NCBI RefSeq assembly: GCF_014764505.1
Contig: NZ_JACXWX010000002.1
Span: forward strand, 372,001 to 436,000
Length of the DNA: 64,000 nt
Source: Phormidium tenue FACHB-886
GTDB taxonomy: Bacteria; Cyanobacteriota; Cyanobacteriia; Elainellales; Elainellaceae
Reading direction: 5' to 3'
Shown here: positions 26,564 through 34,383 of the stretch, one piece after another
How positions within the stretch are numbered: the first letter of the stretch is position 1
How the letters are laid out: each line of letters begins with the position of its first letter
The notes under the pieces: model-generated
Told to the model about the DNA's origin: nothing
Database searches by the model: none
The model's input: the letters and a program-made list of their open reading frames with translations, nothing else
Made by a program: the position numbers and the translations under genes

Positions 26564-26824
26564 CTACAACACACCCGCATTGCCGAGTCCTAAAATAAGA
26601 CCAACTCCCAGCAAATGCCCAAAGCTTGCAGTAGCCAGCAGCTCTGGAATGCCAAACCCGGTAAACATGGCAGGCATCTCTAGAGGCAGCTTAGGACCCA
26701 CGCCTCGGTTTTTGATAGCGTAGTAGCCAACGGCGATCGCAAACAAATTGCAGGCGATCATTACTAGCGCCACGCGAGGCGACCAAGCTGGTGTGTGAAT
26801 AACGGCAAAAGTGAGATTAACCAA
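26564..26824 (-). CDS. psaK: Photosystem I subunit PsaK
   Basis: A small membrane subunit at the edge of photosystem I. Two hydrophobic spans are seen, with the family pattern TPAWSPRVALVMIACNLFAIAVG and GIPELLATASFGHLLGVGLILGLGNAGVL. Taking the TTG at 26824 as start gives 86 residues, the usual PsaK length. It has a good ribosome site AGGAGA 7 bp upstream (26832-26837). An ATG at 26860 would give 98 residues, but it has no ribosome site and lies only six bases after a TATAAT box, so it is probably at or before the transcript start. An ATG at 26848 also lacks a ribosome site. The gene stands alone. Confidence 0.88.
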   Translation of the reverse strand: MVNLTFAVIHTPAWSPRVALVMIACNLFAIAVGYYAIKNRGVGPKLPLEMPAMFTGFGIPELLATASFGHLLGVGLILGLGNAGVL

Positions 26825-26831
26825 GGTTTTA

Positions 26832-26871
26832 TCTCCTGAAAATTGCATGTTGTGATTCATTCAGGATTATA
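26832..26871 (-). promoter_or_regulatory. psaK -10 box and ribosome site that decide the start
   Basis: On the minus strand a perfect TATAAT lies at 26871-26866, which places the transcript start near 26859. The Shine-Dalgarno AGGAGA is at 26837-26832, followed by the TTG at 26824. This gives a leader of about 35 bases. A -35 element at the usual distance is not obvious. Confidence 0.6.
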
Positions 26872-28290: not shown

Positions 28291-28515
28291 TTAATTGTCG
28301 TAGACGCGGCACTCTAGCGCATCGGGGTTATCATCGCAGTATTCCTGCAGGGAGTTCTTGGGAACCACTTTCTCACGCTGATGAGAGGCTTCTGCTTGCA
28401 GCTCTTCCACTGCATCCCAAGCTGCTGCACACTCTGCTGAGCCATCTCCCTTTATTTCACAGACAGCCCGCGCTTCGTCTCTCTCTTTACCAATTTGATC
28501 TTGGATGGTGCTCAT
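28291..28515 (-). CDS. cp12: Calvin cycle regulator CP12
   Basis: A 74-residue redox-switch protein that bridges GAPDH and phosphoribulokinase into an inactive complex in the dark. The hallmarks are complete: N-terminal Cys pair C19 and C29 (around VCEIKGDGSAEC), core motif AWDAVEEL (32-39), C-terminal pair C60 and C69 (YCDDNPDALECRVYDN), and the acidic C terminus that inserts into the GAPDH active site. I chose the ATG at 28515; the frame stays open upstream but adds an atypical segment. The gene is single and ends in a strong terminator. It belongs to the full-length canonical CP12 type, not to the truncated phage variants. Confidence 0.97.
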   Translation of the reverse strand: MSTIQDQIGKERDEARAVCEIKGDGSAECAAAWDAVEELQAEASHQREKVVPKNSLQEYCDDNPDALECRVYDN

Positions 28516-28936
28516 GAATTTATTGCCTTGTTCAATTCGGTTTGGATTTAGACAGTCTATGACTACGCTTTTAGAGTAGCCTATCTTAACTCGGAGTGAG
28601 TTCACCCTAGAGGGTGGTTTTCCCTACTACTCTACCCTTCTAGTAATGCCTGAGAAAGCAGCTTTAACAACAAATTAAGCGGCTTTTCTTAAGCTTTAGA
28701 ACAGGTTAAAGTGCAGTAGCACTAATGCTCACAGCTAAATCACCGGGCTGACTGCCCGCTTTTCAGCTATTCAAACGACTAGTTCTAAATTTTACTGCTT
28801 AAGGCAGAAATTTTTGTTTCCCGGGCGAAAACACAGGCAGCTTTCGGCTAAAAGTTCAGAAAGGTTTAATAATAGAAGGCTAACGGGTAACTTTTGCGAA
28901 AACCTGAATCCATCCAAACGCCTCAAGGAACTGTTC
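28516..28936. other. Divergent spacer between cp12 and the FIST gene (421 bp)
   Basis: Regulatory region of both genes. A short palindrome CACCCT-AG-AGGGTG (28603-28616), about 90 bp before the cp12 ATG, could be an operator. An in-frame extension of the FIST frame back to 28814 exists but does not look coding. No RNA gene is evident. Confidence 0.4.
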
Positions 28937-30211
28937 ATGAAAGACCCAACGCCGCAACCGATGAAGTGGGTGAGTGCCATTTCAACTCGTCCTTCGTTAG
29001 AGGCTGCTGTGCAGGAGGCGATCGCCCAAGCTCAACAGTCGCTTTCAGACACTGCCGATCTGGGGTTGGTATTTATTTCGTCTGCGTTCGCTAGTGAATA
29101 TTCGCGGCTAATGCCGCTGCTGCAAGAAAAGCTTTCTGTGCCAGTGTTAGTTGGCTGTGGTGGCGGCGGGGTGATTGGGGCAGATGCTGCAGGACAAATC
29201 CGCGAGGTGGAGGGAGAAGCTGCCTTTAGCCTAACCCTGGCAAAGCTTCCCGGTGCTAAAATTCAGTCCTTTCATCTTGCCTCAGATAACCTGCCAGATA
29301 TGGATGGTCCACCTGATGCTTGGATCGATCTGATTGGCGTTTCTCCGGCAGAGTCTCCGCATTTCATCTTATTTGCCGACCCCGGATCGGCAGGGGTGAA
29401 CGAGCTTCTGCAGGGATTAGATTTTGCTTATCCAGGTTCTATTAAAGTGGGCGGGCTAGCCGATATCAATGCGATTTCAGGCAGCAGCGGGCTATTCTGC
29501 AACTATCGCCATTACTCACGCGGTATTGTAGGTGTAGCGCTTAGCGGTAATGTAGTGCTTGAGGCGATCGTGGCTCAAGGCTGCCGCCCGATTGGGCAGG
29601 CGTATCGCGTGGTGGAAGGCGATCGCAATATCTTGATGAAATTAGAGGCACAGGGAGAAGATGGCATTTCCTGTGGGCTGAGCCAAACGCCGCTAGAAAT
29701 CCTCCAAACTCTGTTTCAAGATTTGAGTGAGGAGGAACGAGTACAGGCACAGCGATCGCTGTTTGTTGGCATTGCTCAAAGCGCTTTCAAGCAGCAGCTA
29801 GAACAGGGAGACTTCTTAATTCGAACTTTGCTGGGCGTAGATCCGCGTACTGGCGCAGTAGCAATTGGCGATCGGGTCCGTCCGGGGCAGCGGGTACAGT
29901 TTCACCTGCGCGATGCAGCCGCTTCAGCAGAAGATCTAGAAACGTTGTTGCAGCGCTACCAAAAGACTACTGCTCCTGCTCCTATTGGCGCGTTGCTGTT
30001 TGCTTGCCTTGGGCGGGGAGAAGGGCTATATCAGCAGCCCGATTTTGATTCTCGCTTGTTCAGTCAGTACAACACCAATGTCTCTCTCAGCGGGTTCTTC
30101 TGCAATGGTGAAATTGGTCCAGTCGGCGATACCACTTTTCTGCATGGCTATACCTCTGTGTTTGGTATCTGTCGCCAGCTAGAGCCCAGTTCATCAAGAA
30201 AAGGGGAGTAA
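28937..30211 (+). CDS. FIST N and FIST C domain signal-input protein
   Basis: A 424-residue soluble protein. I chose the ATG at 28937 with ribosome site AAGGA at 28925-28929. A FIST N domain covers about 35-210 (LGLVFISSAF, PVLVGCGGGGVIG, FILFADPGSAGVNELLQGLDFAYPG, GGLADIN, LFCNYRHYSRGIVGVALSG) and a FIST C domain about 215-400 (GCRPIGQAYRVVEGDRNIL, FLIRTLLGVDPRTGAVAIGD, VQFHLRDA, ALLFACLGRGEGLY, LSGFFCNGEIGPVG). FIST domains are proposed small-ligand sensors, often upstream of kinases or cyclases; here the protein has no output domain. Its partner is unknown and no signalling gene is adjacent. Confidence 0.9.
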   Translation: MKDPTPQPMKWVSAISTRPSLEAAVQEAIAQAQQSLSDTADLGLVFISSAFASEYSRLMPLLQEKLSVPVLVGCGGGGVIGADAAGQIREVEGEAAFSLTLAKLPGAKIQSFHLASDNLPDMDGPPDAWIDLIGVSPAESPHFILFADPGSAGVNELLQGLDFAYPGSIKVGGLADINAISGSSGLFCNYRHYSRGIVGVALSGNVVLEAIVAQGCRPIGQAYRVVEGDRNILMKLEAQGEDGISCGLSQTPLEILQTLFQDLSEEERVQAQRSLFVGIAQSAFKQQLEQGDFLIRTLLGVDPRTGAVAIGDRVRPGQRVQFHLRDAAASAEDLETLLQRYQKTTAPAPIGALLFACLGRGEGLYQQPDFDSRLFSQYNTNVSLSGFFCNGEIGPVGDTTFLHGYTSVFGICRQLEPSSSRKGE

Positions 30212-30363: not shown

Positions 30364-31251
30364 TCAAAGTCGGACAGCTCGAAGTGTTTGCTTGACTAGG
30401 TTAGCAATCTGCGAAGGACGTTCTGCTAAGGGAATTCTGGCTTGCCAAAAAACAGTTCTACTGTCTGCTATGGCGTCCTGCCCCATCCCGCTGAGGCATT
30501 CAGCTGTTGCGCCTGTCTGCCGGATGGACTGTTTGGAAGCAGCGCGCCCAGCAATATAGGCAACTACAGGTTTATCGATGGCTTCAGCAATGTAGCGAGC
30601 AGCGAGCGCTTCGCTGTCTCCTCCTGCTTCGCCAATCAACACAATCACATCTGTTTGGTCATCCTCTTCCAAAATTTGCAGCCATTGCTGCAGAGAAGAT
30701 CCGATGATTCGATCGCTTCCTACCCCAACCGCGATCGACTGCCCCAACCCTGCCCGTGTCAGCTCCAGCGCCACCTCATAAGTTAGAGTTCCGCTGCGGC
30801 TAACGATGCCCACTGGACCAGGTGTATAGAATGCGGGCGGATGCGTCCCCACCAAAATTTGTCCGGGTACAATCACGCCTGGAGAATTTGCCCCAATCAC
30901 TAAGGTCTCTGTTAGCTCTGCCTGGCGGAGCAGCGCCACCATGTCTAGCGGTGGCACTCCTTCGGGAATCAAGACCAGCTGCCGAATGCCGCTGGCGATC
31001 GCTTCCAGCGCTGCATCTCGTACCTCATAAGGCGGCACAAAAATCACTGCGGTTTCCACGCTGCCCCACTGGTCCAGCGCTTGTTCCACCATATTGTATA
31101 CAGGAATGCCATAGACTGTTTGCCCGCCATACCCCGGACTCACACCTGCCACAATCTGCGTTCCATAGGCTTTCATCAGGGCTGTATAGACAGAACCGAG
31201 GGGTTCCGTAATGCCTATCACTAGCACCCGACTATTAAACGAAAAGTTCAT
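30364..31251 (-). CDS. SucD-like CoA-binding protein lacking the phospho-histidine
   Basis: A 295-residue protein related to the alpha subunit of succinyl-CoA synthetase. The CoA-binding fold is clear: VLVIGITEPLGSVYTALMKAYGTQIVAGVSPGYGG, then VIFVPPYEVRDAALEAIASGIRQLVLIPEGVP, GANSPGVI, and GPVGIVSRSGTLTYEVA. IVLIGEAGGDSE and KPVVAYIAGRAA also align. The family then has GKRMGHAGAI, whose His is phosphorylated during catalysis. Here the aligned stretch is QSIRQTGATAE, with Thr in the His position, and the following segment is shorter. The frame is intact, so this is not a simple frameshift. It lies 14 bp after the SucC-like gene. Normal ligase activity is unlikely; CoA or acyl-CoA binding may remain. 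Confidence 0.85.
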   Translation of the reverse strand: MNFSFNSRVLVIGITEPLGSVYTALMKAYGTQIVAGVSPGYGGQTVYGIPVYNMVEQALDQWGSVETAVIFVPPYEVRDAALEAIASGIRQLVLIPEGVPPLDMVALLRQAELTETLVIGANSPGVIVPGQILVGTHPPAFYTPGPVGIVSRSGTLTYEVALELTRAGLGQSIAVGVGSDRIIGSSLQQWLQILEEDDQTDVIVLIGEAGGDSEALAARYIAEAIDKPVVAYIAGRAASKQSIRQTGATAECLSGMGQDAIADSRTVFWQARIPLAERPSQIANLVKQTLRAVRL

Positions 31252-31265
31252 AAGCTGTCCTGTAA

Positions 31266-32483
31266 CTAGGGGCTAGGAACCGGAGATTGAGAGCTAGATG
31301 AGGAGCTAGATTGATGCAGATAAGCACTTTGGAGCCGAAACTCCCAGGCAGCGGTTGTAGCATTATCGATCGCTTGGGCGACGGCTGCTTCTAGCTGCTC
31401 CACCACCACAATGCCAAAGGGAAGCAACAGTTCTTGCGCTTGATAAAAGTCATTACCAATCGTCCTCAGCACGATCGCTGCACTCTGACCACTAGTGGGC
31501 AACTGCCTTAGTTTAGTGACAACGATTTCGGCAACTTGGCGGCAAGAGAGGCTACTGCTTAAGATGTTTACCAAAACCACTTTTGTTGCATTGTCTTGAA
31601 GCAGCAGATCAAGCCCTTGAGTCAGCCGTTCTAGCAGCGATTGACCTGCACTATTAGCCTCGAACTCATTGCCCAAATCTATAAAGTGAGCCAGCTTGCC
31701 CTGCGCTGCAATGAGATCTAGGGTTGCCATCGTCAGCCCTGTCCCATTGCAAAGCACCCCAATGCTACTGTCAGTAGTTGCCGTCCTGGAAATGTAAACC
31801 GATGAAGCCGAACTCCCCTGTGGCTGAGCGCCGACCAGCATGGACAGGTTCTCATGGCGATCGAATGCTGCATCATTGAGCTTTACTTTGCCGTCTAGCG
31901 CCATCAGCTCTCCTGTATCACTGACTGCTAGCGGATTAATTTCCACTAAGTCCAGATCGTGATGAATAAACAGGTGATACATTTTTTCAATGATGGCGCT
32001 GACGGGCTGGATCAGAGAGCCTTCTAAGCCCATTTTGAGCGCGAGTCGGCGAGCATAGAATGAAGAAAATTCTTGATCGACGATCACCTGCTGCACCTGT
32101 TCTAACCCAGCTTCCACTTCTATGCCACCATACTGGCTACCCAGCAGCAGCGGACGGCGAGCAGAACTATCTAACACAATGGCCAAGTAGAATTCTTGTG
32201 CTGCTTCATATTTTGGCTCTGCCAACAGCACTTCGGGATAAATGCCCCTTATAGGCAGATGAAAAGCTGCTTCAGCGGACGCTATTGCATCAGTTTGGTT
32301 CTCCGCGAAACGCACCCCACTCGCTTTACTTTGCCCACTATAATCCACCTGAGATTTCAAGACGATCGGATAGGGAATCGTTAAACCATTGACCTCGCTG
32401 GGTCGAGCAATTTTTTGGGACGGCAGGACAGGAATTCCTGCCTGACGGAACAACTCTTTAGCTTGATACTCTAGCAGATCCAT
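31266..32483 (-). CDS. SucC-like ATP-grasp protein with altered glycine loop
   Basis: A 405-residue relative of the beta subunit of succinyl-CoA synthetase, starting MDLLEYQAKELFRQAGIPVL at the ATG at 32483. The ATP-grasp domain fills residues 1-235 and includes VVDQEFSSFYARRLALKMGL and LDLVEINPLAVSDTGELMALDGKV, which carry the metal-binding acidic residues. The glycine-rich loop that holds ATP phosphates, AGGRGKAGGV in the family, is here DYSGQSKASGV. The C-terminal CoA-ligase domain (about 255-380) keeps GVLCNGTGLTMATLDLIAAQG. A Ser-rich tail (QSSSSSSSQSP) ends the protein. The gene is upstream of the SucD-like gene with a 14-bp gap, so they are a pair. Loss of the loop fits loss of the phospho-His in the partner. 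Confidence 0.85.
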   Translation of the reverse strand: MDLLEYQAKELFRQAGIPVLPSQKIARPSEVNGLTIPYPIVLKSQVDYSGQSKASGVRFAENQTDAIASAEAAFHLPIRGIYPEVLLAEPKYEAAQEFYLAIVLDSSARRPLLLGSQYGGIEVEAGLEQVQQVIVDQEFSSFYARRLALKMGLEGSLIQPVSAIIEKMYHLFIHHDLDLVEINPLAVSDTGELMALDGKVKLNDAAFDRHENLSMLVGAQPQGSSASSVYISRTATTDSSIGVLCNGTGLTMATLDLIAAQGKLAHFIDLGNEFEANSAGQSLLERLTQGLDLLLQDNATKVVLVNILSSSLSCRQVAEIVVTKLRQLPTSGQSAAIVLRTIGNDFYQAQELLLPFGIVVVEQLEAAVAQAIDNATTAAWEFRLQSAYLHQSSSSSSSQSPVPSP

Positions 32484-33297: not shown

Positions 33298-34383
33298 ATG
33301 CAGATTGGTGTGCCAAAAGAGACAAAGGATCAGGAGTTTCGCGTTGGGTTAAGCCCAAACAGCGTCAGGGGTCTATGCGATGTTGGTCATGATGTTCATG
33401 TAGAAACAATGGCAGGCATAGGCGCTGGATTTACAGATGCAGATTACCGTCAGGCAGGTGCCAAAATTGCTCCAGATGCTGCTTCGGCTTGGGATCAAGA
33501 ATTAGTTGTAAAAGTTAAAGAACCCTTGCCTGAAGAGTATAAATTCATCCACAAGGAGCAACTTCTCTTTACATATCTTCATCTTGCTGCCAACCGTTCT
33601 CTTACAGAACATTTAATCGATAGCGGTGTTACGGCAATCGCCTATGAAACTGTTGAGTTGCCCAACCACAGCCTACCGTTGCTAACGCCGATGAGTATTA
33701 TTGCAGGTCGCCTCTCGGTCCAGTTTGGCGCTCGCTACCTAGAGCGACAACAAGGTGGGCGTGGTGTTCTGTTGGGCGGTGTTCCTGGTGTTAGTCCGGG
33801 GAAAGTAGTGATTTTGGGCGGGGGCGTGGTGGGCACAGAAGCCGCCAAAATGGCGATCGGGCTGGGCGCACAGGTACAAATTTTTGATGTCAACTTGGAG
33901 CGACTTGCCTACCTGGAAACTTTGTTTGGTTCCAGAGTTGGGCTGCTTTACAGCAATGCGCCGCAGATAGAGGCGGTTGTGCCAGATGCTGATCTCTTAG
34001 TAGGGGCTGTGCTAGTTCCCGGTCGGAGAGCCCCTACGCTGGTTTCGCGGGCACTAGTCGAGAAAATGCGTCCTGGCTCAGTCATTGTGGATGTAGCGGT
34101 AGATCAAGGCGGTTGTATTGAAACGTTGCACCCTACTTCACACACTCACCCAACTTACATCGAGGCAGGAGTCGTCCACTATGGCGTTCCCAATATGCCT
34201 GGATCGGTTCCCTGGACGGCAACGCAAGCTTTAAACAACAGTACGTTCCCCTATGTGCTGAAGCTGGCGAATCAAGGAGTTGCTGCCCTCGATCGAGATG
34301 CTGCTTTGAGGCAGGGACTCAACACTCAGAATCACAAGCTTGTCCACCCTGCGATCCGAGAAGTATTTGCTGATCTTGCTTGA
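33298..34383 (+). CDS. ald: Alanine dehydrogenase
   Basis: A 361-residue NAD-dependent enzyme that interconverts L-alanine and pyruvate plus ammonia. It starts MQIGVPKETKDQEFRVGLSP, with the substrate-binding Arg at 15. The catalytic Lys lies in LVVKVKEP near 75 and the His in LFTYLHLAA near 96. The Rossmann loop VVILGGGVVGTEAAKMA is near 170-186, and the Asp loop is VDVAVDQGG near 263. PNMPGSVPWTATQALNNSTFPYV is the usual end motif. A strong ribosome site GAGGAG sits upstream of the ATG. The stop codon lies inside a 41-bp tandem duplication. Confidence 0.97.
   Translation: MQIGVPKETKDQEFRVGLSPNSVRGLCDVGHDVHVETMAGIGAGFTDADYRQAGAKIAPDAASAWDQELVVKVKEPLPEEYKFIHKEQLLFTYLHLAANRSLTEHLIDSGVTAIAYETVELPNHSLPLLTPMSIIAGRLSVQFGARYLERQQGGRGVLLGGVPGVSPGKVVILGGGVVGTEAAKMAIGLGAQVQIFDVNLERLAYLETLFGSRVGLLYSNAPQIEAVVPDADLLVGAVLVPGRRAPTLVSRALVEKMRPGSVIVDVAVDQGGCIETLHPTSHTHPTYIEAGVVHYGVPNMPGSVPWTATQALNNSTFPYVLKLANQGVAALDRDAALRQGLNTQNHKLVHPAIREVFADLA

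Follow-up and report, generated by a model that had tools for sequence, protein, structure and literature searches.

What is left of a succinyl-CoA synthetase (SCS) once its phosphorylated histidine has gone, and what would such a complex be kept for? The question is raised by two adjacent genes, one sucC-like and one sucD-like, in a 64,000-nucleotide stretch of the genome of Phormidium tenue FACHB-886 (the whole of this stretch is called here the window).

The locus and its active sites

The two frames are intact, adjacent, on one strand and spaced by 14 bp, just as the original prediction had described them (Table 1); their 700 codons include no internal stop, and their GC3 is that of the neighbouring genes. 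The same order and strand are found at 84 of 98 SucD loci (some of them counted twice); at the remaining 14 the stretch examined contains no SucC. Cyanobacterial neighbours such as the genes for PsaK (26564-26860, minus strand) and CP12 (28291-28605, minus strand) lie near the pair; a FIST_N/FIST_C sensor-type protein (28814-30211, plus strand) is encoded convergently with the sucD-like gene, and an alanine dehydrogenase gene (33298-34383, plus strand) lies upstream of the sucC-like gene and diverges from it.

Table 1. Positions in the window of the two genes and of the motifs discussed in the text
Feature	Positions	Strand	Basis or remark
sucD-like (SCS alpha) ORF, 295 aa	30364..31251	-	Pfam CoA_binding 1.2e-20, Ligase_CoA 4.9e-13
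Former phosphohistidine loop, RQTGA replacing GHAGA (His246 to Gln)	30508..30522	-	Two SucD alignments (77 and 99 sequences)
IGEAGG, with the Glu equivalent to E. coli alpha E208	30619..30636	-	
Alpha power helix SRSGTLTYE, intact	30775..30801	-	
CoA-binding loop ITEPLG (E. coli FTGSQG)	31195..31212	-	Changed likewise in most cyanobacterial relatives
14-bp spacer separating the two genes	31252..31265	-	
sucC-like (SCS beta) ORF, 405 aa counted from the family start MDLLEYQ	31266..32483	-	Pfam ATP-grasp_2 1.4e-32, Ligase_CoA 9.4e-9
Eroded ATP-grasp loop DYSGQSKASGV (R54Q, G55S, G58S)	32313..32345	-	
Metal/nucleotide residues kept: EINPL (E197, N199), LDGKV (D213)	31884..31943	-	
Start of the beta power helix, LSSSLSC replacing FGGIVRC	31542..31562	-	

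The membership of the pair in the SCS family is clear in its architecture: SCS domains (Pfam CoA_binding, Ligase_CoA and ATP-grasp_2) span the full length of both proteins, and the closest solved structures are SCS chains of the PDB. In a tree built without the loop columns the pair falls inside a cyanobacterial SucCD subfamily (a clade of 32 rows, 99/88), which also holds the proteins of Nostocaceae, Synechocystis (sll1023/sll1557) and Picosynechococcus (PCC 7002 A0890/A0891), and its SucD groups with the neighbouring genus g6 (SH-aLRT 98). The first branch after E. coli on this tree is L055 (G020, family f21), a cyanobacterial SucCD which, unlike the window pair, keeps near-canonical motifs (TGRMG, GHAGA, FLDVGGGA) and is probably close to the ancestral working form. 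On the reading preferred here, the window pair descends from a true succinyl-CoA synthetase. It resembles E. coli SucCD in its two subunits, domain order and adjacent genes, and differs from it in scoring under the curated NCBIfam equivalog cut-offs (272.8 against 336 bits for the SucD-like protein with NF004230, 221.7 against 370 bits for the SucC-like protein with NF001913), as well as in the residues described below.

In alignments of 77-99 sequences from E. coli and cyanobacteria, the SucD-like protein carries G245R, H246Q and A247T, so that the phosphorylated histidine of the alpha swinging loop is absent and a glutamine of RQTGA stands in its place. The loss had been predicted as a replacement of His by Thr; the loss holds, and the alignment rejects the replacement, the threonine being position 247. 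The rest of the alpha site is better kept, with E208, N122 and an intact power helix. In the SucC-like protein the nucleotide loop GGRGKAGG has become SGQSKASG, with R54, G55 and G58 lost, whereas it retains, in E. coli numbering, K46, K56, E99, E107, E197, N199 and D213; the claim that the ATP-grasp signature had disappeared is thus right for the loop and wrong for the remainder, and the site is weakened, not erased. The alpha CoA-binding loop TGxxG is also absent (TEPLG for TGSQG). This change and the altered beta motifs GGGA and GGIVRC are common to most cyanobacterial SucCD that do have the histidine, and are therefore not special to the window pair.

In SCS the histidine shuttles phosphate over about 30 A between the two sites. 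Since it is gone here, ordinary ligase turnover would not be expected if the known mechanism applies: transfer from the nucleotide site of SucC to the CoA site of SucD would be blocked. A swinging-loop mechanism like that of SCS has been described for a relative (PMC11494057).

One could imagine that a second, canonical pair had freed this one to drift. Such a pair was looked for and the idea must be rejected, as the genome contains a single ATP-grasp_2 gene and a single Ligase_CoA pair, both being the window locus. Many genomes of the class-wide search (for instance G018:C1:2706079-2706822) also encode larger proteins, 900-1000 aa long, one region of which is SucD-like and which are probably fusions of the NDP-forming acyl-CoA synthetase or acetyltransferase type; the search for SucD homologues found none in the genome of the window. 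Nor was a 2-oxoglutarate dehydrogenase E1 found in this genome. A ThDP enzyme of 547 aa, for which NCBIfam gives acetolactate synthase as the best name, is encoded right beside an SSADH-like dehydrogenase. The ogdA-ssaD bypass operon of PCC 7002 is arranged in the same way (PMC5160925), and because of this match the ThDP enzyme is likely to be a 2-oxoglutarate decarboxylase. Cyanobacteria reach succinate via 2-oxoglutarate decarboxylase and succinic semialdehyde dehydrogenase, so that flux through SCS is not needed, and this is the likely cause of the loss of the histidine.

A histidine lost many times

A SucD homologue is present in about 75 of 194 genomes of the class-wide search. When the motifs were mapped on the tree of cyanobacterial SucCD, as had been proposed, the window pair turned out not to be an isolated oddity: SucD without the histidine forms nine separate maximal clades (Fitch count 9, against 8 with a smaller set), a number that is rough given weak nodes and long branches (L075, L076). 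In genus g6 the loop is deleted in L012 and L081, whereas L080 still has a His, and for this reason the window and L012/L081 probably lost the loop histidine separately. The SucC partner is affected too: among 15 sites, a mean of 1.67 are changed in pairs without the histidine and 0.44 in pairs with it (Mann-Whitney p = 5e-6, kinship ignored). Some SucD homologues (L048, L064, L067, L068, L070, L072, L076, L078, L079) have no accompanying SucC in the stretch examined, and most SucD of family f20 have the His but stand apart from SucC.

The most striking case is that of the Nostocaceae (family f32; identical plasmids show that G129 is Nostoc sp. UHCC 0870 and that Dolichospermum sp. DET69 is G178). 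Matches were obtained in 142 of 145 genomes, all but one of the 142 having a full-length SucD with at least 76% identity to the query, and not one of 94 SucD sequences has the histidine (Q in 89, K in 2, T in 2, N in 1); it is thus missing from all the heterocyst-formers examined. E208Q is found in all 94 and D213N in 87 of 87 SucC, while K46, R54, E107, E197 and the helix SRS[ST]TLTYE are invariant or nearly so; constraint extends to the loop that took the place of the old one, W-[RHQ]-Q-[TS]-G (W 91/94, Q 89/94, G 94/94). Amides in place of His, Glu and Asp, in a pocket otherwise kept, would fit ligand binding without catalysis. The two erosions differ in detail: the Nostocaceae pair adds E208Q and D213N but keeps R54, and the window pair keeps E208 and D213 but loses R54. 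RQTG is common to both. A single-nucleotide step from GHA suffices for each change, the chance of the coincidence is about 0.1 by a rough count, and L047, sister to the Nostocaceae, already has HTG, so the resemblance probably carries little meaning. Recombination or transfer of the loop from Nostocaceae is unsupported, as the flanking segments of the window resemble its own family more closely.

More of the alpha site has been lost in Synechocystis and Picosynechococcus than in the window. In Synechocystis (the genome used contains both published PCC 6803 sucD primers, whose sequences are in PMC4295605) the loop reads RHFGDSLT, the His has no counterpart and the power helix is broken (SHCDRLTDD). 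Picosynechococcus (G164 is PCC 7117) has loops such as SCHDAGT or SCYDAGT, together with E208R and N122G, and its alpha power helix is broken; we had to abandon the view that this is a clean loss, as in most members the loop is SCHDAG-like and its His sits one residue away from the usual position, Tyr being confined to PCC 7117. In these two genera as in the Nostocaceae, the genes are annotated as SCS and retained, and the His was lost or displaced independently.

Selection, loss and phenotype

Omega was estimated from GY94-type codon models fitted in Python. In Nostocaceae, which are without the histidine throughout, it is 0.075 for SucD and 0.127 for SucC, to be compared with 0.050 and 0.088 in family f16, which has it. 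On the tips of L012 and L081, the nearest relatives of the window without the histidine, which follow a shared loop deletion older than their split, it is 0.050 and 0.136, far below 1 (2dlnL 183 and 135 relative to a fit with omega fixed at 1). The pair is thus under purifying selection after loss of the histidine in both groups. On the window branch omega is 0.108 for SucD and 0.215 for SucC (2dlnL 42 and 17), so that the dN/dS comparison suggested at the outset gives values below 1, SucC standing at about twice the background (2dlnL 5.8-6.6), which hints at relaxation. That selection has retained the window pair itself is likely rather than proved, because dS is high on this branch and the branch spans time before the histidine was lost.

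Where the genes have been lost, they have been lost as a unit. No SucC and no free-standing SucD turned up in G077, a member of the window's family and of genus g6 (98% complete), or in G224, a nearly complete Nostocaceae genome which yielded only a fused SucD relative; G201 and G208 have broken SucCD pieces.

In Synechocystis, SucC and SucD have been detected as proteins (PMC9175036) and sucD transcripts cycle with light (PMC4959675). For the delta-sucCD mutant of Synechococcus PCC 7002, no growth was obtained with 2% CO2, and succinate and malate were about 60% of wild type in the light and 40% in the dark (PMC5160925); the proteins compared here are those of its genus mates, and these are strongly eroded. 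Expression in Synechocystis, the deletion phenotype and the eroded genus-mate proteins, taken together, suggest that the pair still matters without canonical chemistry. Cyanobacterial SucCD is treated in the literature as SCS (PMC7133116, PMC5160925, PMC9855186, PMC7871529), and in Synechocystis and other cyanobacteria as a working step of the TCA cycle (PMC7133116, PMC9855186, PMC7871529). We found no report of the lost histidine in the literature searched, most subscription papers lying outside it, and one may still have been published.

What the pair may have become

We think, with somewhat more conviction than doubt, that the window pair is a retained pseudo-ligase complex which would bind ligands without phosphohistidine chemistry. 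An adenine nucleotide could occupy the grasp pocket of SucC, and an anion, succinate or a CoA ester the SucC-SucD interface, and central metabolism would be influenced through binding of ligands or partners and not through ligase turnover. The original prediction, in which both partners drifted together towards a role without phosphate transfer, agrees with the lack of a substitute copy, the greater erosion of SucC in His-less pairs, the joint losses and the purifying selection; the particular roles it named (CoA or acyl-CoA sensing, scaffolding) are conjectural, and the CoA loop is altered. This alteration also tells against the pseudo-ligase itself, as do the raised omega of SucC on the window branch, the dispensability of the pair in the neighbouring genus (G077) and the succinate drop of PCC 7002, which could be read as residual ligase activity, most genus mates of that strain having a displaced His.

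It seems unlikely to us that the pair is a relic in decay, useless in this lineage and on its way out, with the histidine among the first casualties. The doubled omega of SucC, the complete loss in G077, the broken pieces in G201 and G208 and the position of SCS off the main cyanobacterial route to succinate are what decay would produce; but both frames are intact over their whole length, omega on the window branch is well under 1 for both genes, the sister lineage L012+L081 remained under strong purifying selection after losing the loop, Nostocaceae keep the His-less pair almost universally, and the pieces in G201 and G208 lie at or near contig ends of drafts.

About as unlikely, or slightly more so, is to our mind a different enzyme working without phosphohistidine, be it one that interconverts acyl-phosphate plus CoA and acyl-CoA plus Pi at the alpha site or one that transfers phosphate via, for example, Thr247. 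We know of no relative that uses Thr, the Nostocaceae have amides also for E208 and the Mg ligand D213, and Synechocystis and Picosynechococcus have no intact power helix. In its favour, the window retains E208, N122 and the power helix on the alpha side and a good part of the pocket on the beta side, the position after the lost His is Thr or Ser both here and in 90 of 94 Nostocaceae, and succinate is lowered in the PCC 7002 deletion mutant (PMC5160925).

Finally, an ordinary SCS whose loop was merely misread in sequencing or assembly can be practically discounted: the genome is indeed a draft of 255 contigs and a one-residue deletion lies near the loop, but no reading frame of the locus contains GHAGA or restores either motif (there is therefore no compensated frameshift), the changes are spread across both genes, and eight further clades, assembled independently, show the same loss.

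Returning to the pseudo-ligase, we would extend it to the whole class only tentatively, as a possibility that we rate below even: SCS may have become a non-ligase complex repeatedly in cyanobacteria, and the pair of heterocyst-formers, whose three phosphate-handling residues became amides (H246Q, E208Q, D213N), may serve as a conserved sensor of a ligand or as a regulator of C4 metabolism, which the annotation of model strains would wrongly present as a TCA-cycle enzyme. If Synechocystis and the heterocyst-formers indeed have no phosphohistidine, published TCA maps would be wrong in this one reaction, and a protein pair that is kept and expressed, and whose deletion has a phenotype in a related genus, would be doing another job than that of the enzyme whose label it bears. 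Cyanobacteria would then offer about nine repeated natural experiments in the passage of a core enzyme to a pseudoenzyme.
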